Positions 8,651-26,277 of a stretch of 64,000 nt of DNA are shown in pieces. Below the pieces are notes generated by a model. That model was not told the DNA's origin and searched no databases. It worked only from the letters and a program-made list of their open reading frames with translations. The stretch is taken from assembly GCA_018222965.1 (NCBI GenBank), contig JAAEZH010000007.1, positions 1-64,000 on the forward strand. The letters are read 5' to 3'. Made by a program: the position numbers and the translations under genes. Every line of letters begins with the position of its first letter. Positions within the stretch are counted from its first letter, which is position 1. The DNA comes from Bacteroidota bacterium. GTDB lineage: Bacteria > Bacteroidota > Bacteroidia > Chitinophagales > Saprospiraceae.

Positions 8651-8845
8651 TTATCTATAATTTTTGATATTAAATAATTGATTGTCAGTAATAAGTGTAA
8701 TTATTGGAGATAAAAAATATCTATAAATATAAAGATTTGTGCTTGTTTTCAGCATGGGGAGTTGCCACTTTTGTACAGTCGAAAGAAACCATTTACAAAA
8801 GCTGATAATTACGATCCTATGAATAAGCTAAACCTGTGTAATCCC

Positions 8846-11227
8846 ATGAAACGACTTTTTACTTTTTCATTTTTGCTCGGAAGCATTTTTTTACTGTTTC
8901 CCAATGCAGCATTTTCTCAGTGCGATCCGGATGTGACACCGCCCTTTTTGGAGTGCCATTCCGGGCTCCAGGTATCATTGCCGTGGATTACCGGACAGGA
9001 GGACTTATGGGCTGAGGACTTTATCGAAAACGTAGGAGATTTTTGCGACCTCGATAATCTGATTTTAGAAGCCTCCCTGAATGGCGGGCCATTTGCATCC
9101 TCCTTTCCGGTCGATTGCGACGATATCGGATCGAATACCGTAGAGGTCCAGGCTACAGACCAATCCGGAAATACAGCCTCCTGCACACTCAGCCTGGAGG
9201 TTGCAGATCTGATTGCTCCTGTTCTTGCCTGTGATGATAATACCCAAATCACCCTGCCTTCCAATGGAATGCTTTACCTGACTCCCGGAATGATTTTGGA
9301 GGGAGGATTTCCCGTTGATAATTGTGCGGGAGATTTGATCTTTTCGGTTTCTCTGGATGATGATCCTGCTCAGGATTCTATTTTATTGACCTGTGCTCAC
9401 ATTGGTGATTTTATTGTTTCGATATCTGTAGAGGATACTAATGGCAATTTGAATTTGTGTTGGGGGCAGGTGACAATCGATGGCGGATCTGCCTGTGAAG
9501 AAGTCCAACTGACCGGAAATGTGTTTCAGGACATCAACAGCGATTGTATCCTGGATGCCGGAGAAAACGGATTGGATGGCTGGACCGTGCAGGTTCAAAA
9601 TGATCAGGGCGGAACTCCTCAGGATATCCTGGTAGATGCGTCGGGTAATTACAACGCCGCTTCCTCCTTTAATATGTCAGATCCTAACACCTCCTTTACG
9701 GTAAGTATACCCGGGGCCGGATCCAATATTTTGCCATGTGGAACCTCTTATACGGTGCCCGTTAGTGCCGGAGTTGGCAGTGTTAATCAGGATATACCGG
9801 TTTTTCTCCAAATGGCCTGTCCCTTGTTGAATGCCGATATCGCGGTACCCGTATTGCGTGCTTGTATGTCGAGTACCTACAGTCTGAGCTTCTGCAGTTT
9901 CTCCGGATTCCTGATTGAAGATGCCTACATGGAAGTTACGCTGGATCCTAACCTGACTGTCACCTCAAGCAGCATTCCCTGGTCTGCTGTAAACGGAAAT
10001 ACCTACACTTTTGATCTGGGAGATATTGATCCGGCTGAATGCGATCAGTTTAGCCTGGAAGTTGATGTTGCCTGTGATGTGGAACAGGGACAAACCTTAT
10101 GCTCTGAAGTCACGATCTATCCGGCCGAAATTTGTGCGCCGGTAGATCCGGGCTATTCCGGCGCAAGCCTGAAAGTAAGCAGCGAGTGTGTGGGAGACAA
10201 AGTGCGATTTACCCTGCGGAATGATGGCACAGCTCCAATGGCCGAATCGCAGAATTATGTGATTGTCGAAGACGTGATCATGTACATGCAAACGCCTTTT
10301 GAACTCGAACCGGGAGAAGAAGTAGAGATAGAGGTTCCGGCCAATGGTTCTACCTGGCGCTTTGAAGCTCCAAACGAAGTGCTGTACCCCGGCGATTTCC
10401 AGCCGATTGCCTGGTATGAAGGTTGTGGCGGCATCAACAACACCGGATTGGTCAATCAGTTTCCGGTAGATATTAACGAGCCATTTCGCGCTGTTTTCTG
10501 TTTGGAAGTTACCGGCTCCTACGATCCCAATGACAAACGCGGATTTCCGTATGGAGTGGGAGAGGAGCACTTTGTTAAAAAGAATACAGACCTGGATTAT
10601 ATGATCCGTTTCCAGAATACCGGAACAGACACTGCCTTTAATGTATACATCCTGGATACGCTGGATGTGGATTTCCAGCCGGGTTCCGTAAGAGCAGGCG
10701 CATCGAGTCATCCATACCAGTTTGAAGTATTGGACGGCGGCGTACTCAAGTTTAGTTTCCCGGATATCCTGTTGCCTGATTCCACAACCAATGAAGCTGC
10801 TTCACACGGGTTTGTGTCTTTTGAAATCAGTCAAAGAGAAGACCTGCAGCCTGGTACCATGCTAACCAACTCGGCAGCTATCTATTTTGATTTTAATGAG
10901 CCTGTCATTACCAATGAGACCTGGCATCAGGTGGAGGAAATTGTTTTCTCCGATTTAGAATTGATTAGCCTTTCGGCGAAAGCCTTCTCGTTTTCACCGA
11001 ATCCGGTAAGCGATCAATTAAGGCTTAAGCTGGATAATAAATGGCGTGGAACGATGGACCTTTATATCCTTAATTCCCTGGGGCAGAGAATGGATCATTT
11101 AATTTTTGAAAAGTCTTCCGAAAATTGGGAGGCGGTGATCCCTGTACAAAATCTAATTTCCGGGGCATACATCATGGTGCTCTCAAATGGAAAACAAATG
11201 ATTACCGAGACATTTATCCGACAATAG
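8846..11227 (+). CDS. T9SS-exported multidomain surface protein
   Basis: The 793-residue protein has a clear signal peptide (basic start, hydrophobic core, NAAFSQ cleavage region). Two HYR/Ig-like beta domains (about 30-220) with paired cysteines follow, then an SdrD-like region containing NVFQDINSDCILDAGENGLDGW, and a DUF7619-type domain (about 560-700) recognisable by YDPNDKRG and AAIYFDFNEPVITN. The C terminus is a type A T9SS sorting domain starting at FSFSPNPVSD and ending in ETFIRQ. I chose the ATG at 8846 because it starts directly at the signal peptide. Likely cell-surface adhesin or structural protein; its ligand is unknown. A strong terminator follows at once. Confidence 0.85.
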   Translation: MKRLFTFSFLLGSIFLLFPNAAFSQCDPDVTPPFLECHSGLQVSLPWITGQEDLWAEDFIENVGDFCDLDNLILEASLNGGPFASSFPVDCDDIGSNTVEVQATDQSGNTASCTLSLEVADLIAPVLACDDNTQITLPSNGMLYLTPGMILEGGFPVDNCAGDLIFSVSLDDDPAQDSILLTCAHIGDFIVSISVEDTNGNLNLCWGQVTIDGGSACEEVQLTGNVFQDINSDCILDAGENGLDGWTVQVQNDQGGTPQDILVDASGNYNAASSFNMSDPNTSFTVSIPGAGSNILPCGTSYTVPVSAGVGSVNQDIPVFLQMACPLLNADIAVPVLRACMSSTYSLSFCSFSGFLIEDAYMEVTLDPNLTVTSSSIPWSAVNGNTYTFDLGDIDPAECDQFSLEVDVACDVEQGQTLCSEVTIYPAEICAPVDPGYSGASLKVSSECVGDKVRFTLRNDGTAPMAESQNYVIVEDVIMYMQTPFELEPGEEVEIEVPANGSTWRFEAPNEVLYPGDFQPIAWYEGCGGINNTGLVNQFPVDINEPFRAVFCLEVTGSYDPNDKRGFPYGVGEEHFVKKNTDLDYMIRFQNTGTDTAFNVYILDTLDVDFQPGSVRAGASSHPYQFEVLDGGVLKFSFPDILLPDSTTNEAASHGFVSFEISQREDLQPGTMLTNSAAIYFDFNEPVITNETWHQVEEIVFSDLELISLSAKAFSFSPNPVSDQLRLKLDNKWRGTMDLYILNSLGQRMDHLIFEKSSENWEAVIPVQNLISGAYIMVLSNGKQMITETFIRQ

Positions 11228-11630: not shown

Positions 11631-12362
11631 ATGGAAAGGCTAAAATGGAGGGTGTTAATCTCTTCAAATCAATCCGATACTATAAATTCCATTAATACGC
11701 TTCTTCAATCTCTGGGTGATGTGGAGCTTCTTAGTGTTGGACTGGATGAGGTGTTGAAATACGCCAGCCATACGGATTTGGATTTGATACTCATTGACTT
11801 AAATGACCTGGATCAGGACCGGATCTCAAGAGCCAGCAGCATCCTTGATCGCTTTAAGGTCCAGAGTATTTTTTTTACACTAAATTCAGCATGTAATGCT
11901 TCTGAGGACTCCGGTTTTAATATAGGAAAGGGTTTCTTCTTTCCCTCCTATACCCTGTCTCGTGAAAACCTGTATCTATCCCTTACGAATGCATTAAATA
12001 CTAGATTATCGGAGGATAAACTTGTGGAATCGGATTCGGAGGTTATGCCTTTTCTGTTAAAGCAAAATCGCCACTACATCCCAATTCCTCCGCAGGATCT
12101 GTTATTTATTCAATCAGATGGTAACTACTGTTATCTGATTACCAGGGAAAAAAAATACATCGTAAGAGGATCTTTAAAGCGGATCTTGAAAAAGCTTCCA
12201 TCAGCCCGATTCCTTCAGGTTCATAAGCAATACATCATCCGGGTTGATTTAATCGATCGTCTGGATATGAAGGAATTGAAAGTTTACTATAAATACGGAG
12301 AAAGCTTTCCTATTGGCAGAAGTTATCGGGATCAATTACTATCCGTGTTTACCCTGATCTAG
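11631..12362 (+). CDS. LytTR DNA-binding protein with degenerate receiver
   Basis: The C-terminal 100 residues of this 243-residue protein form a LytTR DNA-binding domain: YIPIPPQDLLFIQSDGNYC, then the RGSLKRILKKLP and FLQVHKQYIIRVDLID segments typical of AlgR/LytR regulators. The first 120 residues look like a CheY receiver fold (VLISSNQSD, LDLILIDLND) but lack the acidic pair after the first strand and the conserved Lys near residue 105, so normal phosphorylation is doubtful. No histidine kinase gene is adjacent. Its place between two surface-protein genes suggests that it regulates them, which is inference. Confidence 0.85.
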   Translation: MERLKWRVLISSNQSDTINSINTLLQSLGDVELLSVGLDEVLKYASHTDLDLILIDLNDLDQDRISRASSILDRFKVQSIFFTLNSACNASEDSGFNIGKGFFFPSYTLSRENLYLSLTNALNTRLSEDKLVESDSEVMPFLLKQNRHYIPIPPQDLLFIQSDGNYCYLITREKKYIVRGSLKRILKKLPSARFLQVHKQYIIRVDLIDRLDMKELKVYYKYGESFPIGRSYRDQLLSVFTLI

Positions 12363-12861: not shown

Positions 12862-15800
12862 ATGGAACACATTGTACCCGCTAAAAACAAATTATATTTA
12901 TTTCTAATTGCCATTGCCGTTTTAATTCCGGTGTTGGGAAAAAGCGAAAAAGCATTTTTCTCTTCCATACTGGAAAACGACAGTCTTTGCAACGATGCGA
13001 TTAGTGGTCCGCTGGTAAATACGTACACAGAAACGGATGCATTATGTGTTGGTTGTACGGTAATTGGCGAATCCAATATGGTCAATGGCGACCTAAACGA
13101 TTTTGCGCTGGTTTCCTTGTTGGTCAGTCCGCTTGGGCAGGGCGTCGAACTGGGAGTGATCAGTACAGAAGACTATTATCCGGGAGGAAATGAAACAGGT
13201 TTTGTGTTGAGTTCCTCAACGGGAATCCTCGACCTTACTACACTGGGTGCACTTACCATTAGCACCTATTTGAATGGCGTACCGCAAGAATCGGCAACCA
13301 TCGGCAATGGTTTGCTGGATGTAAGCTTGCTGGCCGGTGACGCTTCCAGGCAAAAAGTTTCCATTGAAACTACCCTTGATTTTGATGAAGTACACTTGTA
13401 TGTTGACGGGGGCCTGGTAGGGGCTACCCTAAATATGTATGTTTATTATGCTTTTGAGCAACCAGCTGGCCTTTGCGATAATAGCTGCATGGAGGCACTT
13501 ACGGCTACTTCCTCCTACGGAGCCTCTATAAATAATGGAAATACAGGCCTGGGCGGGATTTGTGTTCTCTGTTCTGTTTCGGATACACCAAATGTTACCG
13601 ATGGCGACACGACGAATTTCGGTAACATTTCCCTTCCTATCGGAGTCCTGGGCTCCGGATCAATTTCTGTAGAAACCACATCCCCTGTTCCTGCCGGATA
13701 TGAGGCAGGATTTGTCGTTAGAGATGGCGACGGATTGTTGGGATTACTGGATGTGCAGGTTTTGGATCAGATTTATATTAATACCTATTTAGCAGGGGTG
13801 CCACAAGAATCCTATTTGGCATCCAATTTCTTGGTTTCTGCCTTTATCCTGGAAGGCACAACTGATCTTGTCCGCATTGGGTTCAAGACCACAGAAGCAT
13901 TTGATGAAATTCAGTTTACAGCCTATGGCCTGGTAAGCTTGGGGTTGAACATCGATGTTTTTCATGCTTACGTGGTTGCCGACAGCGACAACGATGGCAT
14001 TGCAGATTGCCTGGATCAGTGTGCATTGGGAGATGATTTGGTGGATACCGATCAGGATGGCATTCCCGATGCCTGCGATGATGTAACTACCTGCGAACCA
14101 TCCGGAGAAGAAATCCTGGAAGACAATGGTATTTGCAATGACGCAATTACAGGTGTGGGAACTACCGTAGAATCTCAAATTTCCGGGCTTTGTCTGCTCT
14201 GTTCCGTCTTGGATGAAGACAATGTTGTTGATGGAGACCTGGGAAATTTTGCAGATATCAATATTGGTGTTTCTGCATTGGGAGAAGGAGTTACCATGAC
14301 GGTAACAGATACCGTAAGATATTACCCGGGCGGCTACGAAGCTGGTTTTGTTCTGGGTTCGGGCAGCGGCCTTTTAGATGCTTCCGTGCTAGGCAGTTTT
14401 ACCATTCGTACTTATAAGGATGGCCTGGTTCAGGAGTCGGCAACGACCGGCAACGGTTTGCTCAACTTATCGGCTCTTCAGGCAGGACCTTTGCCACGTT
14501 ATAGGGTTGGTTTTACCACCACGCTGGATTTTGATGCCGTAGAAATATTTGTAAACGGTGGATTATTGAGTGCCCTGCTTAATCTGCGGGTATATTACGC
14601 TTATGAACAACCGACCTCCTGTGGCGATGCTTGTATTCAGGCATTAACCAGCAGTTCAAACGGAGCTGCAATCAATGGATCCAATACAGGGCTCAGTGGA
14701 ATTTGTATTCTCTGTGATGTTTCAGGCACCGCCGATGTAGTAGACACTGACACTACCAACAATGGTCAAATTAGTCTGGCACTTGGAGCGCTGGTAACAG
14801 GTTCCATGTCAGTCGGTGTAACAGATACCTTCCCTGCCGGTACAACGGTGGGTTATGTCGTAGAGGATGATTCCGGATTATTGGGACTTTTGGATGCTCA
14901 AATACTGGGGCAAATTACCCTGACAACCTACCTGGGAGGTTCGCAGCAGGAATCGGTTGCAGCGACCAGCTCACTGGTTGGCGCTACTGTTCTGCCGGGC
15001 ACCAGCGCACTTAACGCCTTAGGATTTACGGTTACTGCTCCTTTTGATGAAGTGCAGATTTCTGTTGCCGGTTTACTAGGACTTGGAATCGATTTGAATA
15101 TCTACTATGCCTGGGTGGTACTGGATGCCGATAGCGATGGTGTAGCTGATTGCAACGACCAATGTCTGGCTGGAAGTGACCTTATTGATTTAGATGGCGA
15201 TGGCATTCCCGATGCCTGTGACCCTTATGTGGGATGTGAATGTGAGGTTGCGGGCAATTGCCTCGATGCTATCGACAATTTTGGTACCGTAAATGAAATG
15301 GATACCACGATTGTGGATGTCCTTCCCAATGATATTATCAATGTACCCATTGATACCTCCAGCCTTGCAGTTGTATCCGGTCCGGATAATGGTACTGCTA
15401 CTGTTTTGGTAGATGGAACGATAGAATATGTACCCGATACTGCTTTTGTAGGAATAGATTCTTTTCAATATGTCATTTGCACAGACGAAATGACACCTAC
15501 TTGTGATTCAGCCTGGGTATTTATGACCGTGGAGGCCATGTTTGTTCGTCTGGATCTCAAAGTCTTATTGCAAGGCGCTCTTTACGGGGTAGTAGATACT
15601 ATTATGTATGACAGCCTGCGGTCGCAGAGTCTTATCCCTACAACAGAACCTTATACATCCCTTACGGGCTTTACACATGTCAACGGTGGGTTTGCAAGAA
15701 TTGATGATCCCGGCAGCATATTAGCCGATTTGGGGGATTCTTCGGTAGTAGATTGGGTCTTTGTAGAATTGCGGGATCCGGCAGACTCCACGCTCATCTT

Positions 15801-16350
15801 GTCTACTCGATCCGCCTTAGTACTTAGAAACGGGGATGTTGTGGATAGCAATGGAGAGCCGTTGATTTGGTTCAATCTGGCCACACCGGCAGAATATCAT
15901 GTATCAGTACGACATCGCAATCACCTTGGAGTAATGACGGCTCAATCTGTTAGTCTTACAACTGCCGGAACTACCGTCGATTTCACCGACACAACAACCG
16001 ACTTCCATAACAATCAAGCCAATTACGATGGCTTTGAACAAGCAACCATAAACGGTAAGTATGCACTATGGGCCGGAAACGCGCTGGTCGATGGCAAGGT
16101 GGTATTTGCCGGCCAGGATAATGACATCGACGACATCTACAACGAGGTGATTTTTGCTCCGGGCAATTTGCTCAATCTGCAGACTTATCAGTTTAACGGA
16201 TACAATCCTGGCGATATCAATACAAATGGCGATTCTGTTTTTGCCGGTCAGGCAAATGATGTGGATCCTGTTTTCAATAATATAGATGGTTTTGGCCCTA
16301 ACCTGCTAAAACTGCAAACATTCATCATGTACGAACAACTGCCTGAATAA
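12862..16350 (+). CDS. Secreted repeat protein with TSP3-like and dockerin-like modules
   Basis: The 1162 residues start with a signal peptide. Four homologous modules of about 165 residues follow in two pairs (about 45-375 and 413-756), each with a Cys-x-x-Cys near its start and a tract ending in YYA or HAY. Each pair ends in a thrombospondin-3-like calcium segment (DSDNDGIADCLDQC; DADSDGVADCNDQC). A cadherin-like domain (about 793-890) follows, then a 270-residue C-terminal module shared with the next gene, containing SVRHRNHLGVM and two dockerin-like repeats of type FAGQDNDIDDIYNE, ending in EQLPE. There is no type A T9SS tail, so the shared module may be the anchor or sorting unit. Ligand unknown. 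Confidence 0.8.
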   Translation: MEHIVPAKNKLYLFLIAIAVLIPVLGKSEKAFFSSILENDSLCNDAISGPLVNTYTETDALCVGCTVIGESNMVNGDLNDFALVSLLVSPLGQGVELGVISTEDYYPGGNETGFVLSSSTGILDLTTLGALTISTYLNGVPQESATIGNGLLDVSLLAGDASRQKVSIETTLDFDEVHLYVDGGLVGATLNMYVYYAFEQPAGLCDNSCMEALTATSSYGASINNGNTGLGGICVLCSVSDTPNVTDGDTTNFGNISLPIGVLGSGSISVETTSPVPAGYEAGFVVRDGDGLLGLLDVQVLDQIYINTYLAGVPQESYLASNFLVSAFILEGTTDLVRIGFKTTEAFDEIQFTAYGLVSLGLNIDVFHAYVVADSDNDGIADCLDQCALGDDLVDTDQDGIPDACDDVTTCEPSGEEILEDNGICNDAITGVGTTVESQISGLCLLCSVLDEDNVVDGDLGNFADINIGVSALGEGVTMTVTDTVRYYPGGYEAGFVLGSGSGLLDASVLGSFTIRTYKDGLVQESATTGNGLLNLSALQAGPLPRYRVGFTTTLDFDAVEIFVNGGLLSALLNLRVYYAYEQPTSCGDACIQALTSSSNGAAINGSNTGLSGICILCDVSGTADVVDTDTTNNGQISLALGALVTGSMSVGVTDTFPAGTTVGYVVEDDSGLLGLLDAQILGQITLTTYLGGSQQESVAATSSLVGATVLPGTSALNALGFTVTAPFDEVQISVAGLLGLGIDLNIYYAWVVLDADSDGVADCNDQCLAGSDLIDLDGDGIPDACDPYVGCECEVAGNCLDAIDNFGTVNEMDTTIVDVLPNDIINVPIDTSSLAVVSGPDNGTATVLVDGTIEYVPDTAFVGIDSFQYVICTDEMTPTCDSAWVFMTVEAMFVRLDLKVLLQGALYGVVDTIMYDSLRSQSLIPTTEPYTSLTGFTHVNGGFARIDDPGSILADLGDSSVVDWVFVELRDPADSTLILSTRSALVLRNGDVVDSNGEPLIWFNLATPAEYHVSVRHRNHLGVMTAQSVSLTTAGTTVDFTDTTTDFHNNQANYDGFEQATINGKYALWAGNALVDGKVVFAGQDNDIDDIYNEVIFAPGNLLNLQTYQFNGYNPGDINTNGDSVFAGQANDVDPVFNNIDGFGPNLLKLQTFIMYEQLPE

Positions 16351-16377
16351 CCATTGGGGAAACACAAAAACTATCCT

Positions 16378-19300
16378 ATGCTTAAATGTTTACAAACGAT
16401 ACTGACCCTGGGGGGAATATTACTGCTTAGTCATACTGCTTTTGCGCAGGATGAAGTAGAGTATGGATTTGTACAGGATCCAAACGACCCCTTATTTATT
16501 ACTGCTGTAGCTTATCCAAACTTTACATCAAATAATGTAACGATTTCCACAGCTGTATTTTCTTTTGTACTTCCGGAGGGAACACTAACAACGCCTTCCA
16601 TACCGGTTGCACCCGGTTCCGGTTCTTTCAACGATAGTACCGGCACCTGGACCGCACAATTAATTACACCTACGCTCTACAGCAACTTCGGTTTTGATCC
16701 CGCAGAACTTCAGGGTAATGATGTTTACCAGGTCGTATTGCAAAACTCCCCTATACTAACCGATGTTCAAAGCGGAGTTTACATTCCCTTATTTGCTTTT
16801 CGTTTACCAAACGATTGTATGAATGGAAACGTCGAAATCCTAACCAATGACGGCGCTATTCAGCAATCTATACTCATGAATCTGGGGGCTAATTTCAACA
16901 ACCAGATGTCTATGAGTATTGATGATGCGCCATCCACAGATATTTATGCGGGAAATGCACCCGGAAATTTCTCATTTCCTTGTCCGCTGAATGATGCTCC
17001 TGCAGCTGTTGATGATGCAATTACTATTCTTGAAGATTCAGGTACCCATAATATTGATGTTCTTAATAATGACTCATTTGGTGATAATGGTCCTGCTACC
17101 GGTGCGATCGTGATTTTGATGAACCCATTGAATGGTACTGCCACCGTTGATACCGGTGTCGACCCCAACGATCCGACCGATGATTCCATTAACTATACCT
17201 CCAACTTGCATTTCAACGGTTTGGATTCACTTACCTATTACATTTGCGATTTTGACGGGGATTGCGACACTGCTACAGTGCTGATTACGGTAGATCCTGT
17301 AAACGATCCTCCGGTAGCTATGGACGATTCTGATACCACTAATGAGGATACGCCTGTCACAACTGAGGTGCTTGCCAATGATGATGACCCAAATGATCCG
17401 GCTGCCAATGTGGATCCCACCTCAGTGGCTATCGTAGATTCTCCAAATAATGGCACGGTAAGTGTAAATCCGGTAACAGGCGAAATCACCTATACGCCGG
17501 ATCCCAACTTCAACGGATCAGATACCTATACCTATGAGGTCTGCGATACGGGTAATCCGTTGCCGCCGCTCTGCGATACAGCTACGGTTACTATTGATGT
17601 GACTCCGGTTAATGACCCACCCGTGATCGACAGCATGGGCGTGGATGTGGAAGTAGTGTATGAAACTACCCCGGAAGACACCCCTGTAACGACCTGCGTG
17701 AGCGTAAGCGATCCGGATATGGATATACTGAGCTGCACGCTGATTGGTCCGTCCAACGGTTCAGCCGTCCTCCAGGATGATACCTGCGTGGTTTATACGC
17801 CAGACCCGAATTACAACGGCCAGGACACCCTCTGGAAAGTAGTATGTGATCCATTCAATGCCTGTGATACGGTAATGATAGTATACACCGTCGATCCGGT
17901 AAATGATGCACCAATAGCCAATGATGATTCGGAAACTACAGATGAAGATACACCGGTGACCACAGTTGTGATTGCCAATGATAATGACGATGCTGATCCG
18001 GCAGGGGGCATAGATCCCACCTCAGTGGCCATTGTAGATTCTCCAAATAATGGTACGGTAAGTGTAAATCCGGTAACGGGCGAAGTCACCTATACGCCAG
18101 ACCCCAACTTTATCGGTACAGATACCTATACCTATGAGGTCTGCGATACGGGCAATCCGTTGCCGCCGCTCTGCGATACAGCTACGGTTACTATTGATGT
18201 GACTCCGGTTAATGACCCACCCGTGATCGACAGCATGGGCGTGGATGTGGAAGTAGTGTATGAAACTACCCCGGAAGACACCCCTGTAACGACCTGCGTG
18301 AGCGTAAGCGATCCGGATATGGATATACTGAGCTGCACGCTGATTGGTCCGTCCAACGGTTCAGCCGTCCTCCAGGATGATACCTGCGTGGTTTATACGC
18401 CAGACCCGAATTACAACGGCCAGGACACCCTCTGGAAAGTAGTATGTGATCCATTCAATGCCTGTGATACGGTTATGATCGTATACACCATTGATGCAGT
18501 AAACGATGCACCGCTTGCCATGGACGATACAGATAGCGTTGATGAAGATGGTATGGTAACAACCGATGTGGTTGCGAATGACAACGACGATGCAGATCCG
18601 GCGGGAGGGGTAGATCCTACCTCGGTGGCGATCGTTGATCCTCCGGATAACGGAACGGTAAGTGTGAATCCGGTTACGGGTGAAATCACCTATACTCCGG
18701 ACCCGGATTTCAATGGCATAGATACTTATTCTTACGAAGTATGCGATACAGGCAATCCATTGCCGCCACTTTGCGATACGGCCACCGTAACAATAACGGT
18801 CAATCCAATCAACGACGGCCCGATTGCCAACGATGATACTGATTCCGTAGATGAGGACGGCATGGTAACAACCAGTGTCCTTGCAAATGATAACGATGAT
18901 GCTGATCCGGCGGGCGGCATAGATCCGACATCGGTAACCATCACGACCTCGCCTGCTAACGGAACGGTCAGTGTGGACCCCGTAACGGGAGACATTACCT
19001 ATACACCTGATCCAAACTTTAACGGGGTAGATACATACTCCTACCAGGTATGTGATACAGGAAATCCACTTCCGGAACTCTGCGATATTGCCACCGTCAC
19101 CATTACGGTAAACCCAATCAACGATGCACCGGTTGCCATGGACGACACAGATTCTGTGGATGAAAATACACCGGTAACGACTGATGTGGTTGCCAATGAT
19201 GATGATCCTAACGATCCATTAGGAAACGTGGATCCGACTTCGGTAACTATTGTCGATCCGCCGGCTAATGGTATGGTCAGTGTGGATCCGGTGACCGGAG

Positions 19301-20241
19301 AAATCACCTATACCCCCGATCCATATTTCTATGGAACGGACACATATACTTATGCTATTTGTGATACAGGAAATCCTGTTCCGGTACTATGTGATACTGC
19401 AGCTGTAGCCATAATGGTTAATCCTGTTTTCATCAGACTACAACCAATTGTCCTGCTTCAGGGACCCCTTATTGATGATGGCGGACCTTTAATGGATGAT
19501 GCCCTTCGCGCCAATGGATACATTCCGTTGTCAGAGCCTTACAGTGCCCTTGGTAGTTACATTCACGAAAGTGGAGGTGGCGGCGAAATGATCACTGATT
19601 CTGCAGGTGTACTGGCAGATTATGGGGCCAACTCTATTGTCGATTGGGTCTTTGTAGAGTTGCGAGACTCCGCAGATTCAACTGATGTAATTGCCACCAG
19701 AGCGGCTTTGGTTCAACGTGATGGAGATGTGGTAGATGTAGACGGAGTTTCACCCGTATTGTTTACCCAAACCATGAATGGTACTTACTTCGTATCCATT
19801 CGCCACCGAAACCACATTGGTGCCATGGTGCGCGCAACCATACCCGTAAGTGCTACCGGTACAATCGTGGACTTTACCGATACGGCTACTGACTATTTCC
19901 AGACAGCAGCTATTTATGACACCTACGAACAGGCAAATGTTGGAGGTAGCTATGCCCTCTGGGCGGGCAATACCAACGCTGATGATAAAGTGGTTTATGC
20001 CGGACAGGACAACGACAAGGATCCGATCTTTAATGAGATCGACCAGGCTCCCGGCAACCCGCTCAAATTCCAGACGTACATCTACAATGGCTACCACCTG
20101 GGAGATGTGAAACTGGATGGAGCAACCATTTTCGCCGGACAGGATAACGACGTCGATGCAATTTTCAACAATATAGATGCTTACCCGGCAAACCTATTGA
20201 AGTTGCAAACATTCGTGATTCCTCAACAACTGCCTCAATAA
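16378..20241 (+). CDS. Giant cadherin-like repeat surface protein
   Basis: The 1287-residue protein starts at ATG 16378 with a signal peptide ending in HTAFAQ; the TTG at 16354 is less likely. The N-terminal domain (about 20-200) is strongly similar to that of the 20332 gene and looks cohesin-like in its beta pattern. Eight tandem cadherin-like domains of about 100 residues follow, with the marks NDD.....DEDTPVTT, VSVNPVTGEITYTPDPNF and CDTATVTI. Two of them (3 and 5) are identical copies. The C terminus is the 270-residue module shared with the 12862 gene (RHRNHIGAM; FAGQDNDVDAIFNN; ends QQLPQ). It probably forms a long calcium-stiffened stalk at the cell surface. It starts 27 bp after the 12862 gene ends, so the two are probably cotranscribed. 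Confidence 0.85.
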   Translation: MLKCLQTILTLGGILLLSHTAFAQDEVEYGFVQDPNDPLFITAVAYPNFTSNNVTISTAVFSFVLPEGTLTTPSIPVAPGSGSFNDSTGTWTAQLITPTLYSNFGFDPAELQGNDVYQVVLQNSPILTDVQSGVYIPLFAFRLPNDCMNGNVEILTNDGAIQQSILMNLGANFNNQMSMSIDDAPSTDIYAGNAPGNFSFPCPLNDAPAAVDDAITILEDSGTHNIDVLNNDSFGDNGPATGAIVILMNPLNGTATVDTGVDPNDPTDDSINYTSNLHFNGLDSLTYYICDFDGDCDTATVLITVDPVNDPPVAMDDSDTTNEDTPVTTEVLANDDDPNDPAANVDPTSVAIVDSPNNGTVSVNPVTGEITYTPDPNFNGSDTYTYEVCDTGNPLPPLCDTATVTIDVTPVNDPPVIDSMGVDVEVVYETTPEDTPVTTCVSVSDPDMDILSCTLIGPSNGSAVLQDDTCVVYTPDPNYNGQDTLWKVVCDPFNACDTVMIVYTVDPVNDAPIANDDSETTDEDTPVTTVVIANDNDDADPAGGIDPTSVAIVDSPNNGTVSVNPVTGEVTYTPDPNFIGTDTYTYEVCDTGNPLPPLCDTATVTIDVTPVNDPPVIDSMGVDVEVVYETTPEDTPVTTCVSVSDPDMDILSCTLIGPSNGSAVLQDDTCVVYTPDPNYNGQDTLWKVVCDPFNACDTVMIVYTIDAVNDAPLAMDDTDSVDEDGMVTTDVVANDNDDADPAGGVDPTSVAIVDPPDNGTVSVNPVTGEITYTPDPDFNGIDTYSYEVCDTGNPLPPLCDTATVTITVNPINDGPIANDDTDSVDEDGMVTTSVLANDNDDADPAGGIDPTSVTITTSPANGTVSVDPVTGDITYTPDPNFNGVDTYSYQVCDTGNPLPELCDIATVTITVNPINDAPVAMDDTDSVDENTPVTTDVVANDDDPNDPLGNVDPTSVTIVDPPANGMVSVDPVTGEITYTPDPYFYGTDTYTYAICDTGNPVPVLCDTAAVAIMVNPVFIRLQPIVLLQGPLIDDGGPLMDDALRANGYIPLSEPYSALGSYIHESGGGGEMITDSAGVLADYGANSIVDWVFVELRDSADSTDVIATRAALVQRDGDVVDVDGVSPVLFTQTMNGTYFVSIRHRNHIGAMVRATIPVSATGTIVDFTDTATDYFQTAAIYDTYEQANVGGSYALWAGNTNADDKVVYAGQDNDKDPIFNEIDQAPGNPLKFQTYIYNGYHLGDVKLDGATIFAGQDNDVDAIFNNIDAYPANLLKLQTFVIPQQLPQ
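17553..17872 (+). repeat. 320-bp exact duplicate, copy 1 (period 600 bp)
   Basis: Identical base for base with 18153-18472 and offset by exactly 600 bp. The pair covers the end of one cadherin-like domain and nearly all of the next. Other domains of the same gene have diverged, so this copy is recent or homogenised by gene conversion. Confidence 0.95.
18153..18472 (+). repeat. 320-bp exact duplicate, copy 2
   Basis: Second copy of the segment at 17553-17872. The match extends leftward with a single t/c difference near 17552/18152 and decays after 18472. Confidence 0.95.
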
Positions 20242-20259
20242 GGAACACTGACACTGCGC

Positions 20260-20309
20260 GGCCGGCTTTCGATGGAGGATATCGGGGGGTATGCATCCAT
20301 CAGCCGGCC
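20260..20309 (+). promoter_or_regulatory. Leader hairpin between two surface-protein genes
   Basis: Arms GGCCGGCT (20260-20267) and AGCCGGCC (20302-20309) enclose a second stem GATGGA/TCCATC. No T-run follows, so it is not a standard terminator. It lies 23 bp before the ATG at 20332 and may control the ratio of upstream to downstream gene expression or mark an RNA processing site. Confidence 0.65.
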
Positions 20310-20331
20310 CCTATTAACAAATTATAGTTTC

Positions 20332-23300
20332 ATGAAACAATTATTTACGATACTAGCTTCGATGATTTTCATCCTGCACCTGCAGGCGCAGGATGAAATT
20401 ACGTATGGATTTTTGCAAACACCGGGCGATCCTCTGGAATTCTCGGCGGTTGCTTATCCAAACTTTACCTCAAATAATGTGACCATATCAACTGCTGTCT
20501 TTTCCTTCCTTTTACCGGAAGGAACCACTACTGACCCTGTCATTCCGGTAGCTCCGGGGACAGGGGCTTTTGTGGATATAACGGGGGTGTGGCAGGCACA
20601 ATTGATAACTCCTACACTTTACAATGACCTGGGCTTCGATCCGGCCGAACTGGAAGGAAATGATGTTTATCAGGTGGTGCTTCAGAATTCTCCGGAATTA
20701 ACCAATGTGGTTTCCGGAGATCCCATCGCTCTTTTTTCTTTTCGACTTCCGTCGGATTGTATGGGCGGTAATGTGGAAGTGCTGACTAATGACAGCAACA
20801 TACAACAGTCTATCCTCAATAACCTGGGAGCGAATTTCAACAACCAAATGTCAGTCAGTATTGATGATGCGGCTTCCGTAGATATCTATGCAGGAAATGA
20901 CCCGTCAACCTTCCAATACGACTGTCCGCTTGATATGGATGATATGCCTAATGCGGTGGATGATTTGGTGACACTGATCGAAGACGGCGGTTTCCAGGAA
21001 ATTGATGTTCTGGTCAATGACGATTTTGGCAATGACGGCCCGGGAAACCAGGATATTGCCATCATTTTAAATCCGGCCAACGGTATGTTGGTGCTGGATG
21101 ATGGTGGAACCCCCAACGACCCAACAGATGATTCCTTCCAGTATGTACCGGATCCAAATTTCAACGGAATTGATCAGTTTACCTACGAAATCTGTGATGC
21201 CAATGGCGATTGCGATCAGGCTACCGTTTTCATTACGGTAGATCCGGTAAATGATCAACCTCTGGCCATAGATGATATGGATAACACCATTGAAGGTACA
21301 CCCATCACCACGGATGTGCTGGCCAATGATTCAGACCCCAATGATCCGCTGGGAGGCATTGATCCGACAAGTGTGGCTGTTGTAACGGGACCATCTAATG
21401 GGGCTGTATCTGTGGACCCGGTGACGGGTGTTATTACCTATACGCCGGATGGCGGATTTATCGGGACCGATAGTTACACCTATTCGGTTTGTGATACCGG
21501 CAACCCTTTACCTCCGCTTTGCGATACAGCGACCGTTACCATATTGGTGGAAGCAGATAATGAGCCACCGGTAATTACTTACAACGGCAATGAGGTAGAT
21601 ACGATTTATGTGGTTGTGGAAGAAAACGCTACAGACACTACCTGTGTAACGATCACCGACCCCGATGAAGATGATATTACTTGCAGCCTTTCCGGATTTC
21701 CGAATGGAAGTGCTACTACACTAAATGACACCTGCGTGGTGTACAGCCCCGACATGGGCTACACCGGTGCCGATTATGTGATCAAAGAAGCATGCGATCC
21801 ATTTGGAGGCTGTGATACAGTCGTGATCGTATATGAGGTCATACCATTACCCGAAATTCAATACCCACAAACGTGTACCTGTTTGGATAATTCTACCAAT
21901 CAGGATAATGGCCAATTCGGCGAAAGCCTGAATGTGGTAGCCGGTGAGGGACAAACCTGGACACTCATCAGTTCCGTCGGTTTTTACCTGACTGCAAGTC
22001 CTCCACCTCCAAACAACCCGATTCCCTATCCGGCTGGTTCGGTATTAGCGGAAGGTCCGGCAGGTGTTTACGCCATCGATGGGATTTTTGTAGAGGGAGA
22101 AACCTACAATCTGGTATTCCAAAACGAGTTTGGACAGCAGATTACAGCGAGCAGTACTTGTTATTATCCAACGCTTTCTTTTGTTGGACTGGATGACGAG
22201 TATTGTATCGGTTCCCCTCCGGTAACACTACAAGGCAATGCTAACGGAGCCTCAGGTGTAGCAAGCTATACCATTGATGGTGCTCCGGCCTCGGTATTTG
22301 ATCCGGGTGCATTAGGCGTTGGCCAATATGTCATTGAGTTTTCTTTCGATGCGGGAACGGCTACTCCCAACGATCCTTCCGATCCGGGCTGTACCGAAAG
22401 CATTAGTCAGATTGTCCATGTGCTGGAAACACCCGATGTAATTGCCTGTAATAATAATATTCAGGCGTCTTACGACGAATTTTGCGAGATTTTCGTGACA
22501 CCGGATATGATACTTGAAGGAGATTTTGTCTGCAACGATGACTTCACCATCAGCATTTCTTACAATAATAATAGCGTGCCCAATCCTTTTGGCATTGAAT
22601 ACGAGGGTCTGACCCTCACCGTGCTGGTTACACATGTACCGTCCGGAAATTCCTGCTGGGGATCTATTGTTGCCGAAGATAAGCTGGACCCGGTTTTTGA
22701 TTGTCCGAGTGCTCCGGTTGAAATCGAGTGTTTTGAAGATCCGTCGAATGTTCCACCACCAATCGCAACCGATAATTGTACGGATGTGGATTATCATCTG
22801 ATCTCTGAAAATTATACAGATCAGGATGTTTGCGACGATGGTTATGCCGAGCTGGTTCAGGTTTGGACGGCTACCGATGCCAATGGCAACGAAAGCGATC
22901 CATGTACCCGTATTATCCATATCGTTCGTCCGGATGATGTAGATTTCCCGGATGATATTGAGTGGGAGTGCTCAGACTACAACCTCTTTAACAATGTAGT
23001 AGAAGCCACACCGCTTACCGGAAACCTGGCAACCACAGGCTCCGGCGTACCGGATGTTCAGGAAGGCACCTATTGTAATTATGGTTACACCTGGTCTGAT
23101 GAGATCATCGAGACTTGTGGCGATAACTTTAAGATCATTCGTACCTGGACGGTACTCGACTGGTGTACCAATGATGTGATCACGGAAAACGAAGCCGGAG
23201 AGGATAACATTCAGATCATCAAAGTGGTGGATACTACACCACCGGTGATTCAAATGGATCCTTTTGATCTGAGTGCCAACATTGTGGGAGCTCATCCGCA

Positions 23301-26277
23301 ACCCTGTAATTCACAGGATTTCATTCCGCCGGCCAATGTAACCGACGCCTGTTCAGACTGGACGCTGCGTATTTTTACGCCTGTCGGCGAAGCCATCTAT
23401 GTCAATGGCGTAAATGGTAATGCCGGGGGATTGGTACCTGCTCCGGGCCTTGAGCTCGGGTTCCACCTGATTACTTACCAGGCGACAGACGCATGTGGGA
23501 ATGTAGCCACATTGGATGTTGCGGCAGAAGTAGTTGACGATATTGCTCCGACAGCGATTTGTGATGAAATTACAACCGTTTCCCTCTCCAGTCAGGGGGA
23601 AGCAGAAGTACTTGCCGATGTATTCGACGACGGTTCTTACGACAATTGTGGGGTGGAAGAATTCCTGGTTCGTCGTATGGATGGAGCATGTGACGGAAGC
23701 TTTGATGACTTTGGACCAACGGTAATCTTCTGTTGTGAGGATGTACCCAATAACCCGATCATGGTAGTGTTCCGGGTTGTAGATTATTATGGCAATGTCA
23801 ATGATTGTATGGTAGAAGTGATTGTGGAAGATAAAATTCCACCAATCACCACTTTCTGCCCGGGACCAGAGACTATTAGCTGTGAAGAGTACGTAGACGA
23901 CCTGGCCGCAGCCTTGGCTAATGAAGAGTACAGCGTACTGGAACCCTTTGGTCTGCCTACATTCTTCGATAATTGTGCCCTGAATGAAGAATACACCGTC
24001 ACGGTAAATATTGATAATTGCCAGGAGGGAACCATCATACGTTCCTGGACAGCGACCGATGACAATCCGAATAATCCGTCTGCAAATTGTACGCAAACGA
24101 TTTTTGTAGAACACGTATCCGACTGGGTCGTGGAATTTCCGGCGGATATTCTGGTAGAATGTACCGATGGTCAGCTTCCCGACTTTGGTGAGCCCGAAAT
24201 ATACTTTGATGAGTGCGAACTAATCGGGGTCAGTTTTGAAGACCAGTATTTCTATGTGGTTCCGGATGCCTGTTACAAAATTGTACGGACCTGGACCGCC
24301 ATCAACTGGTGTATTTACGAAGACTTTGGCTATGATGCCTTCAGCGAGGAGAACCACTATGAAGCAGTGTATTTCGCTGATTGGGATGGTGACGGCGATC
24401 AGGATGATCGCACTTTCCGCGATGGTTGGAATGATTCCGGAGCACCCGGCACCGCAGATGGTTACATCGTATACGAACAGGTCATCAAGGTCAACGATTC
24501 TGAAGCACCCGAATTTGAGATTCCGGAAATTGACGGTTGTATCGTGGAAGTAGATTGTGATAAAGATCTCACGATTCCATACCCGAATATTCTGGATCAG
24601 TGTTCGCCTTCATTTGTTGTGAATATCTCCGGTGATTTTGGTGATTTTGACGACATCCAGGCGGATGTGATTATTGCCGATGTTGTTCCCGGCGATTACA
24701 CCATCTACTATGAAGTGACGGATGATTGCGGCAACACTTCCTATGAGACTTACGAGCTTACCGTTGAAGATTGCAAGCTGCCAACGCCTTACTGCTTAAA
24801 CGGATTGGTGGTGGAGATTATGCAAACGCAGATGATCGAAGTCTGGGCCTCTGATCTCAATCTTGGAAGTTTTGATAATTGTCCAGGAGACCTCATTTAC
24901 AGTTTCTCTCCGGATGTAACCGACCTCGGCGTGGTATACACCTGCGATGATCTCGGCCAACAAGCGGTTGAGATCTGGGTAACAGATGCCGCCGGTAACC
25001 AGGACTTCTGCGAAACCTTCATTGTTGTGCAGGATAACATGGACTTCTGTGGCGGTTCACCTGTTGCAGTAGCCGGACTGATCACTACTGAAATGGACGA
25101 CCCGGTACAGGATGTAATGGTTGATGTAAACAGCGGTTTGGCTGTGGAAATGACCTTATCTGACGGCTTGTTTGATTTTGAGCTTGCCGCGAATAATGAT
25201 TACTCCATCACACCAATGCTCGACGCGGATCATATAAACGGGGTGACCACCTACGATCTGGTTTTGATTCAAAAACACATCCTGGGAGAAATTCCGTTGG
25301 ATAGCCCATACAAGCTCATCGCAGCGGATGCGAATAACTCGGGCACCGTTACCACTATGGATATGCTGGCGATTCGTCAGGTGATTCTGTATGAGGAAGA
25401 AAGCTTCCCCAATAACACCAGCTGGCGTTTTGTGGATGCCGATTATGTATTCCCGGATCCAAGCAATCCCTGGATGGAGACTTTCCCGGAGATCATCAAT
25501 TACAACGACCTGAATACAGACCAACTGGAAACCGACTTCGTGGGCGTGAAAATTGGTGATGTAAACAATAGTGTAGTTGCTAATGATGGCATGGCCGGGT
25601 CTGAAAACCGGAATGCATTGCCAGCGATTCAGTTTAGCACTGCAGATCGCATATTGGAAGCCGGAGAGGAAGCCGTTATTTACTTCAGCCTGGCAAACAC
25701 CAATATCAAAGGCTACCAGTTTACGCTGGATGTTGATTCGGAACTGGCTGAAATTCTGGAGATTATTCCGGTGGTGGCTAAAGCCGAAAACTTTGGCGCG
25801 AGTCATTTAAAATCCGGCCAACTTACTACGAGCTGGCATGCTCAGGCCGGCCAGCAACATCCAACAGGAATTTGGTTTGGTATCCGCCTTTCGGCGAATG
25901 AAAGTCTGCAACTAAGTGATGTGATTCGAATGGGATCAGCACTTACCACTGCAGAGAGTTACGATGAAGCAGGAAACCTGCAAAATGTTGAGTTGGTATT
26001 CACCGATTCAAGTGCAGATTCTGGAATAGTTCTGGAACAAAATACACCAAATCCATTCCGCACAGAAACCAGTATCAGGTTCTATCTACCAGATAACCAG
26101 TGGGCTAAAATCCGGGTTACTGATGTAGAAGGCCGGGAGGTTCTGGTGCAGGAAGGCCGGTTTAATGCTGGTTGGAATACCATCGAACTGGAGGGCGAAC
26201 AATTGCCTAAAGGCGTTTGGTATTACTCCCTGCAAACTGCAAACGAGATCCTAAGCAGAAAGATGATTAGACAATAA
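20332..26277 (+). CDS. Giant T9SS surface protein with HYR-like and dockerin-like domains
   Basis: The 1981-residue protein starts at ATG 20332 with a signal peptide (core ILASMIFILHL, then QAQDE). Residues about 20-205 match the N-terminal domain of the 16378 protein. Three cadherin-like domains follow (to about 510), then a long array of cysteine-containing HYR/Ig-like domains with phrases such as ATDANGNES and VVDTTPPVI. Around 1610-1740 is a dockerin-like unit (DLVLIQKHILG and AADANNSGTVTTMDMLAIRQ), followed by a cohesin-like beta domain. A type A T9SS sorting domain closes the protein (EQNTPNPFRTETSIRFYLPD; end SRKMIRQ). This is probably a cell-surface adhesin exported by T9SS; the ligand is unknown. 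A terminator follows. Confidence 0.87.
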   Translation: MKQLFTILASMIFILHLQAQDEITYGFLQTPGDPLEFSAVAYPNFTSNNVTISTAVFSFLLPEGTTTDPVIPVAPGTGAFVDITGVWQAQLITPTLYNDLGFDPAELEGNDVYQVVLQNSPELTNVVSGDPIALFSFRLPSDCMGGNVEVLTNDSNIQQSILNNLGANFNNQMSVSIDDAASVDIYAGNDPSTFQYDCPLDMDDMPNAVDDLVTLIEDGGFQEIDVLVNDDFGNDGPGNQDIAIILNPANGMLVLDDGGTPNDPTDDSFQYVPDPNFNGIDQFTYEICDANGDCDQATVFITVDPVNDQPLAIDDMDNTIEGTPITTDVLANDSDPNDPLGGIDPTSVAVVTGPSNGAVSVDPVTGVITYTPDGGFIGTDSYTYSVCDTGNPLPPLCDTATVTILVEADNEPPVITYNGNEVDTIYVVVEENATDTTCVTITDPDEDDITCSLSGFPNGSATTLNDTCVVYSPDMGYTGADYVIKEACDPFGGCDTVVIVYEVIPLPEIQYPQTCTCLDNSTNQDNGQFGESLNVVAGEGQTWTLISSVGFYLTASPPPPNNPIPYPAGSVLAEGPAGVYAIDGIFVEGETYNLVFQNEFGQQITASSTCYYPTLSFVGLDDEYCIGSPPVTLQGNANGASGVASYTIDGAPASVFDPGALGVGQYVIEFSFDAGTATPNDPSDPGCTESISQIVHVLETPDVIACNNNIQASYDEFCEIFVTPDMILEGDFVCNDDFTISISYNNNSVPNPFGIEYEGLTLTVLVTHVPSGNSCWGSIVAEDKLDPVFDCPSAPVEIECFEDPSNVPPPIATDNCTDVDYHLISENYTDQDVCDDGYAELVQVWTATDANGNESDPCTRIIHIVRPDDVDFPDDIEWECSDYNLFNNVVEATPLTGNLATTGSGVPDVQEGTYCNYGYTWSDEIIETCGDNFKIIRTWTVLDWCTNDVITENEAGEDNIQIIKVVDTTPPVIQMDPFDLSANIVGAHPQPCNSQDFIPPANVTDACSDWTLRIFTPVGEAIYVNGVNGNAGGLVPAPGLELGFHLITYQATDACGNVATLDVAAEVVDDIAPTAICDEITTVSLSSQGEAEVLADVFDDGSYDNCGVEEFLVRRMDGACDGSFDDFGPTVIFCCEDVPNNPIMVVFRVVDYYGNVNDCMVEVIVEDKIPPITTFCPGPETISCEEYVDDLAAALANEEYSVLEPFGLPTFFDNCALNEEYTVTVNIDNCQEGTIIRSWTATDDNPNNPSANCTQTIFVEHVSDWVVEFPADILVECTDGQLPDFGEPEIYFDECELIGVSFEDQYFYVVPDACYKIVRTWTAINWCIYEDFGYDAFSEENHYEAVYFADWDGDGDQDDRTFRDGWNDSGAPGTADGYIVYEQVIKVNDSEAPEFEIPEIDGCIVEVDCDKDLTIPYPNILDQCSPSFVVNISGDFGDFDDIQADVIIADVVPGDYTIYYEVTDDCGNTSYETYELTVEDCKLPTPYCLNGLVVEIMQTQMIEVWASDLNLGSFDNCPGDLIYSFSPDVTDLGVVYTCDDLGQQAVEIWVTDAAGNQDFCETFIVVQDNMDFCGGSPVAVAGLITTEMDDPVQDVMVDVNSGLAVEMTLSDGLFDFELAANNDYSITPMLDADHINGVTTYDLVLIQKHILGEIPLDSPYKLIAADANNSGTVTTMDMLAIRQVILYEEESFPNNTSWRFVDADYVFPDPSNPWMETFPEIINYNDLNTDQLETDFVGVKIGDVNNSVVANDGMAGSENRNALPAIQFSTADRILEAGEEAVIYFSLANTNIKGYQFTLDVDSELAEILEIIPVVAKAENFGASHLKSGQLTTSWHAQAGQQHPTGIWFGIRLSANESLQLSDVIRMGSALTTAESYDEAGNLQNVELVFTDSSADSGIVLEQNTPNPFRTETSIRFYLPDNQWAKIRVTDVEGREVLVQEGRFNAGWNTIELEGEQLPKGVWYYSLQTANEILSRKMIRQ

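Follow-up and report, generated by a model that had tools for sequence, protein, structure and literature searches.

In a 64,000-nucleotide stretch of a Saprospiraceae genome (Bacteroidota bacterium, assembly GCA_018222965.1, contig JAAEZH010000007.1, positions 1 to 64,000; hereafter the window), three co-directional open reading frames (ORFs), P0001, P0002 and P0003, fill positions 12862-26277 and probably encode a short, scaffoldin-like chain anchored to the cell surface. A C-terminal module (C-module) ends P0001 and P0002, and an N-terminal domain (N-domain) opens both P0002 and P0003 after a signal peptide, the latter recognized by eye only. In the proposed chain, P0001, which holds only a plug (the C-module), would dock on the socket (the N-domain) of P0002; P0002, consisting of socket, cadherin-like rod and plug, would dock on the socket of P0003; and P0003, with its socket and its type IX secretion system (T9SS) tail, would be fixed to the cell surface by the T9SS. 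The order of assembly from tip to base would be given by the order of the genes, and the product would presumably serve as an adhesive or extension fibre. An initial annotation of the window had suggested a T9SS-anchored multi-protein complex, and this idea gains support from the predicted folds, from the gene islands in which the modules are found, from the sorting signals on proteins carrying the N-domain alone and from the co-occurrence of both modules, the docking itself being a prediction.

Cohesin-dockerin docking is best known from the enzyme complexes of anaerobic clostridia, and a mechanically equivalent principle appears to be used by Gram-negative bacteria of two phyla to form anchored chains on their surface. 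In Acetivibrio cellulolyticus, according to PMC4217186, the type II X-dockerin protein ScaA docks on the adaptor ScaB, which carries cohesins as well as a dockerin, and ScaB docks on the cell-anchored ScaC. Because this tip, link and anchor logic is the same as that of P0001, P0002 and P0003, we propose a corresponding docking for the three proteins. The window family differs from ScaA-ScaB-ScaC in having a single cohesin-like domain at the N-terminus of each protein (two to four in some), in an N-domain unseen by the Pfam cohesin model, and in tails of the T9SS, CVP-CTERM or IPTL-CTERM type in place of surface-layer homology domains. It further differs in its lack of enzymes: no enzyme or cellulose-binding family of Pfam matched P0001-P0003 at E<=1, so that the island does not read as a cellulosome.

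The C-modules of P0001 and P0002 are 53% identical over 271 amino acids (E 2.0e-88), no further match being found in the genome at E<=1e-3, and they hold four FAGQ-like units (VFAGQDND and VFAGQAND in P0001, VYAGQDND and IFAGQDND in P0002), which confirms the shared C-terminal module that the initial annotation had recognized. An AlphaFold2 model of the P0002 copy, made from 70 sequences, reached a predicted local distance difference test score (pLDDT) of 96.8 and a predicted template modelling score (pTM) of 0.93. It shows an immunoglobulin (Ig)-like sandwich (residues ~1-185) followed by two loop-helix repeats (~186-275), which is the architecture of a type II X-dockerin, an Ig-like X-module and then a two-loop-helix dockerin; the fold of the P0001 copy is taken from that of P0002. 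Foldseek against the PDB ranked type II X-dockerins first and second (E 1.3e-3 and 3.6e-3, none being below 1e-3), and in a second structural comparison the top eight rows were all X-dockerins (Z 9.2-8.0, next row 5.9). The top X-dockerin alignments comprise 146-151 residues and run from model residue 4-6 to 270-275 at 13-16% identity. On this model, the C-module is best read as an X-dockerin-like plug, whose binding would presumably need calcium. Like the C-module, the type II cohesin/X-dockerin pairs of Clostridium thermocellum (2b59, 5g5d, 3kcp, 4fl4) combine an Ig-like X-module with a two-loop dockerin, the differences being the 13-16% identity in structural alignment and the longer loops, of the ND.D type, in the window. 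The X-module has been likened to carboxypeptidase D (1qmu) in PMC5141474, and 1qmu is also found among the structural matches of the C-module (Z 5.1).

At the level of sequence, a wider profile (A1) searched against PDB sequences gave 27 matches at E<=10, the best being 2b59_B (E 6.1e-4); 23 of these are dockerin or X-dockerin chains (assigned by molecule name or by entry), two are chains named serine protease and two are ribosomal protein L14. The narrower profile A2 and profile A4 gave no cohesin or dockerin match among PDB sequences, and Pfam Dockerin_1 matched none of 70 C-module sequences at E<=0.1. In two relatives with canonical loops, the C-terminus is matched by Dockerin_1, with a score equal to the cut-off in one and below it in the other. 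Within P0001-P0003, neither the C-module nor the N-domain is covered by any Pfam or NCBIfam model. The position of the C-module is nearly constant: 231 of 234 distinct closed ORFs end within 60 amino acids past the match (185/188 in Bacteroidota, 46/46 in Thiotrichales), as do 247 of 252 ORFs in a larger locus set searched with profile A2, the loci L085 and L116 being kept within the Bacteroidota set in both counts (L and G numbers are our handles for loci and genomes). Rare internal C-modules were seen in L090:7842-9785, followed by 375 amino acids that look RHS-like by eye, and in L111:3-9641, followed by 303 amino acids.

Between P0002 and P0003, the N-domains share 76% identity over 181 amino acids (E 8.7e-87), in agreement with the common N-terminal domain of the initial annotation, and the likeness continues into the following cadherin-like repeats (64% identity over 513 amino acids in all). 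The N-domain model (pLDDT 95.6, pTM 0.91) retrieved cohesins at ranks 1-28 of the second structural comparison (Z 9.4-8.1, first other row 8.0), with 2xdh from Archaeoglobus among the matches. Structure prediction, the check that the initial annotation had called for, thus yielded both folds, that of a type II X-dockerin and, less clearly, that of a cohesin. The designation 'cohesin-like', already used in the initial annotation, stands for the predicted fold and fails for the sequence, as no sequence model sees a cohesin: the Pfam cohesin model PF00963 matched none of 31 N-domains at E<=0.1. When one N-domain sequence alone served as query, just 3 of 100 relatives gave a match.

The tail of P0003 scores 28.5 bits with TIGR04183 of NCBIfam (cut-off 23), identifying P0003 as a type A T9SS substrate as had been claimed from the sequence, and 25.0 bits with Pfam PF18962, below the cut-off of 27; the genome also encodes SprA. 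A dockerin-like unit that had likewise been reported in P0003 is indeed seen by Pfam Dockerin_1 at residues 1658-1705, as a weak match of 21.4 bits that falls below the cut-off of 22.9. In P0001 and P0002, no T9SS type A, B or C tail was found at E<=1 in NCBIfam, in which type C is held as NF033708. We looked for known sorting signals in the last 150 residues of module proteins from other islands as well. Among proteins with an N-domain and no C-module (N-only), 51 of 57 tails carried one at E<=0.01 (21 T9SS type A, 18 IPTL-CTERM, 11 CVP-CTERM and 1 T9SS type C), compared to 0 of 58 tails of C-module proteins, a random draw (38 + 20) from 200 of the 252 C-module ORFs. The 57 tails derive from 64 N-only ORFs with more than 45 amino acids past the domain, seven being omitted, four because they lie away from a C-module (L171, L172, L173, L175) and three because of masked tails (L047, L086, L050); by inspection, no tail was counted twice, and five of the six tails lacking a signal look like N+C genes (with both modules) split by a frameshift. 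Judged from their sequences, the N-only proteins would be the anchored ones. XrtH, which from its NCBIfam naming we take to be the exosortase tied to IPTL-CTERM, is present in all 25 Thiotrichales genomes with an N-domain and in 11 of the 38 other genomes. The putative NCBIfam sorting signal CVP-CTERM ends, for example, the N-only proteins L051:12580-13854, L056:8858-10129 and L061:8905-10194, and in L051 and L061 the neighbour of the CVP-CTERM protein is an N-only protein that ends in a T9SS type A tail.

The islands share a common plan. In Bacteroidota and Thiotrichales, the usual order is one or more C-only genes, then N+C genes, and one or more N-only genes last, and the window matches this plan exactly (C, N+C, N with T9SS tail). 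Among 68 loci with at least two module ORFs, the complete last module gene is N-only in 41 of 47 loci, compared to 20.4 expected from shuffled order, and the complete first module gene is C-only in 17 of 23, compared to 7.3 expected. Thiotrichales islands additionally have a stand-alone N-domain protein of about 200 amino acids between the C-only and the N+C genes; such proteins, e.g. L133:8184-8813 and L134:9170-9817, end right after the domain, and the one that was scanned had no NCBIfam match. They could possibly be a cap, adaptor or chaperone of the C-module. Slightly longer N-domain proteins (251-269 amino acids) with a tail that looks helical by eye are encoded at L171:6702-7508, L172:7128-7934, L173:6057-6809 and L175:6342-7124, in several Thiotrichales genomes, and no C-module was found in the stretches fetched around them.

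Profile searches beyond the window, which the initial annotation had proposed for other Saprospiria, found the C-module in 42 of the 296 Bacteroidota genomes sampled, as well as in 27 of 63 from the Thiotrichales, the order to which the gammaproteobacterium Thiofilum flexile belongs. The N-domain was present in 25 of the 27 Thiotrichales genomes with a C-module and in none of the 36 without, and in three of the 296 Bacteroidota genomes, all three with a C-module. In the sampled genomes, N-domains thus occur only beside C-modules (25/25 in Thiotrichales, 3/3 in Bacteroidota). The N-domain search scored up to 12 candidates per genome, by which some N-domains may be missed, and copy numbers from the genome searches, in which limited candidates were scored, are lower bounds. 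As most loci were fetched via the C-module, adjacency of the N-domain was measured mainly there, and the whole-genome searches form the independent check. Of the 79 loci fetched by the C-module alone, 38 include an N-domain ORF as well; for six Thiotrichales genomes whose contigs are long (G489, G491, G492, G496, G497, G498), 39 of 45 N-domain matches lie in a C-module gene or island (hand count); and in the window's own genome the two C-modules and two N-domains that were found all lie within 12862-26277. Loop type follows the same division: C-module ORFs with the long loops of the window number 140 in loci with an N-domain and 66 in loci without, those with canonical loops 1 and 30, respectively (types set by pattern, overlapping loci retained, 47 ORFs fitting both or neither).

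Some genomes use the C-module on a large scale and in other company. In G006, 175 candidates were found at first look and all 25 that were scored matched; the proteins concerned (e.g. L151-L156) are diverse and include amidase, CEMIP-like, FG-GAP and lamin tail proteins, among others. No Pfam cohesin was found in G006, nor an N-domain by single-sequence search or in the fetched loci, so that either another receptor exists or the module acts otherwise there; the C-module of G006 has the appearance of an orphan docking tag. Classical Pfam cohesins were rejected as the general partner, since 8 of the 20 genomes searched (G006, G071, G087, G099, G184, G228, G432, G422) had none at E<=1e-3, several of these being rich in C-modules. 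They are present in the other 12, with 11 matches in the window genome, outside the window contig. A 460-amino-acid ORF at L163 (G112:C12:257728-258759) has a Pfam cohesin match directly before its C-module, which shows that the two can be combined in a single protein. Plasmids gave no C-module match and viral contigs gave one locus, L116; in L085, from a record named Nitrosomonas, the C-module protein is Bacteroidota-like by eye and SprA was not found, which makes a binning error probable.

The pairing of plugs and sockets was studied by co-variation between islands. In 18 hand-picked Bacteroidota islands, the correlation was highest between the C-module of the link (the N+C gene) and the N-domain of the next gene (r 0.91) and between the C-module of the tip (the C-only gene) and the N-domain of the link (r 0.88), compared to 0.75 for tip C-module and next N-domain and 0.77 for link C-module and its own N-domain. 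A first set of 13 islands gave the same ranking. Islands of G055 (one contig) and G001 (two) were pieced together, and split-frame ORFs are included from L047, L050 and L062.

Several observations weigh against the proposed chain. In a bootstrap over islands, about 90% of draws keep the sign of the co-variation, and the partners with the higher correlation adjoin on the DNA, so that linkage alone could give the co-variation, which is therefore not decisive. In nine Thiotrichales islands (the complete ones of 15 listed), the link C-module co-varies with its own N-domain at 0.96, compared to 0.69 with the next N-domain, which would fit self-polymerisation or plain phylogeny. Since the Bacteroidota result is not decisive and the Thiotrichales result points the opposite way, the order of pairing is one that we infer. 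The gene order has exceptions: a C-module is present in 6 of the 47 last genes that are complete and an N-domain in 6 of the 23 such first genes, and of 135 C-only/N-only pairs 14 are reversed, many of these involving genes of frameshifted appearance; moreover, the stand-alone N-domain proteins of about 200 amino acids are unexplained by a simple chain. For the fold of the N-domain, Foldseek gave weak matches, an integrin ranking first and cohesins second, fourth, seventh and eighth (best E 0.027), with CBM3 domains also among them, and the lead over other sandwiches in the second comparison is small (Z 8.1 vs 8.0). Because of this small lead and the absent PF00963 match, we claim no membership of the cohesin family; similarity to the cohesin fold is supported. 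Finally, 39 of the 42 Bacteroidota genomes with a C-module show no N-domain, the N-domain match of G344, one of the three positive Bacteroidota genomes, was not recovered by a profile run on the fetched stretch, and 41 of the 79 C-module loci hold no N-domain in the fetched stretch. The C-module thus has other partners or jobs, and many C-modules must have partners other than the N-domain.

One alternative to the chain is that the C-module serves by itself for export or sorting, in Bacteroidota as a further C-terminal signal of the T9SS kind, and that the N-domain does something unconnected with it. T9SS type A, B and C signals are, according to PMC10202324, likewise C-terminal on large secreted Bacteroidota proteins, and P0003 carries type A. 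A sorting role would agree with the C-terminal position of nearly all C-modules, with a QLP-like end (a loose pattern) in 120 of 189 ORFs of the Bacteroidota set and 21 of 63 Thiotrichales ORFs, with the abundance of C-module proteins in genomes that showed no N-domain, G006 being an example, and with the need of P0001 and P0002, on which no type A, B or C tail was found, for some export route. SprA was furthermore found in all 42 Bacteroidota genomes with a C-module, by which T9SS export through the module is possible there, and in 45 of 47 further genomes with a C-module (a check covering 47 of 78 C-module loci), while none of 68 SprA-negative Bacteroidota genomes has a C-module. However, 16 of the 20 listed SprA-negative Bacteroidota genomes (48 are unlisted) belong to one family, so that 0/68 is not independent evidence. 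Thiofilum, the member of the Thiotrichales covered by the SprA search, has at least 25 C-module matches and no SprA was found in it, hence the C-module cannot be a T9SS signal everywhere. The independent sorting function that the initial annotation had named as an argument against a docking complex thus fails as a universal T9SS signal and is possible within Bacteroidota, and an exclusive role in T9SS sorting was rejected on the same ground. Replacement of T9SS tails by the C-module was also rejected, as all 13 genomes tested are rich in type A tails whether or not they have a C-module, which equally speaks against the sorting role. The C-modules of P0001 and P0002, as well as the 58 sampled tails, match none of the NCBIfam models for type A, B or C, and with about 275 amino acids the module also differs from these signals in its size and in its presence in Thiofilum. 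Together with the X-dockerin-like fold and the nesting of N-domains in genomes with a C-module, this makes the sorting role improbable.

Rather unlikely, in our judgement, is that docking occurs mainly from self to self, with P0002 polymerising by inserting its C-module into the N-domain of another copy, P0001 capping and P0003 anchoring a fibre of variable length. P0002 carries both halves, its N-domain shares 76% identity with that of P0003, and in the nine Thiotrichales islands the link C-module co-varies best with the stand-alone N-domain (0.97) and its own N-domain (0.96); in Bacteroidota, by contrast, it co-varies best with the N-domain of the next gene. In addition, for 150 of the 162 N-domains in islands with two or more, the nearest neighbour lies in another island, mostly at the same position, an outcome that close relatives within the set favour. 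It is also quite improbable that the three proteins are modular adhesins that share domains through duplication only and bind other ligands (sugars, host or matrix proteins) with the C-module and N-domain. The cadherin-like repeats in all three proteins and the CBM3 domains among the weak fold matches of the N-domain would suit this idea, from which, however, neither the usual C, N+C, N order, nor sorting signals on N-only proteins and on none of the sampled C-module proteins, nor the nesting of the N-domain in C-module genomes of two phyla would be expected.

Going beyond the window, we give slightly less than an even chance to a more general form of the proposed chain, in which the islands encode a new class of calcium-dependent, self-assembling surface fibres that are re-anchored in each group by the local signal, the plug acting elsewhere as a general display tag. 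Cadherin-like rods would be joined head to tail in Bacteroidota and Thiotrichales by a cohesin-like/X-dockerin-like coupling outside known sequence models and anchored through T9SS, CVP-CTERM or IPTL-CTERM tails; in other Bacteroidota, the display tag would sit on diverse secreted proteins and dock on a receptor still to be found. Cohesin and dockerin modules occur outside cellulosomes, in other bacteria and archaea, and what sets the present families apart from these is that they are paired, keep to a conserved order of genes, come with anchors and are found in two phyla. Anchored cohesin-dockerin chains are already known from cellulosomes; the present families, hosts, anchors and enzyme-free rods, like the islands themselves, were not found described in the open-licence literature of PubMed Central, outside which most subscription papers lie. 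If the binding is confirmed, a large C-terminal module that lacks annotation and is present in 42 of the 296 Bacteroidota genomes sampled would be explained, such islands could be read by a simple rule (plug C-terminal, socket N-terminal, anchor last), and protein engineering would gain new docking pairs.

Table 1. Positions in the window of the three proteins and their modules
Feature	Position	Strand	Description
P0001	12862..16350	+	1162 aa (amino acids); C-module present, no N-domain found; 'tip' of the proposed chain
C-module of P0001	15526..16347	+	X-module-like Ig part and two dockerin-like repeats, up to the stop
P0002	16354..20241	+	1295 aa; N-domain, cadherin-like repeats and C-module; 'link'
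N-domain of P0002	16447..16998	+	predicted cohesin-like fold; model pLDDT 95.6
Repeats of P0002	17002..19428 (approximate limits)	+	about eight Big_9/Cadherin/tandem-95 repeats
C-module of P0002	19414..20238	+	predicted X-dockerin-like; model pLDDT 96.8
P0003	20272..26277	+	2001 aa; N-domain, no C-module found, T9SS tail; 'anchor'
N-domain of P0003	20389..20940	+	sequence match to the P0002 N-domain
Weak Dockerin_1-like unit in P0003	25243..25386	+	Pfam 21.4 bits; outside the C-module family
T9SS type A sorting domain of P0003	26044..26274	+	TIGR04183 28.5 bits; PF18962 25.0 bits

Within the ORFs of Table 1, the likely ATG of P0002 is internal, at 16378, 27 bases past the stop of P0001, and P0003 likely starts at 20332, 90 bases past the stop of P0002, both starts being chosen by eye. 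Cadherin-like repeats are common to all three proteins (Pfam), and tandem-95 repeats lie between the end modules (Pfam, NCBIfam). In P0001, positions 12862-15400 show by eye an internal duplication, two long similar halves before the Big_9 repeat, which have no Pfam match and are possibly the functional tip. Upstream of the island, positions 11631-12362 encode a LytTR-type DNA-binding protein and positions 8762-11227 another T9SS-tailed protein, with DUF7619.

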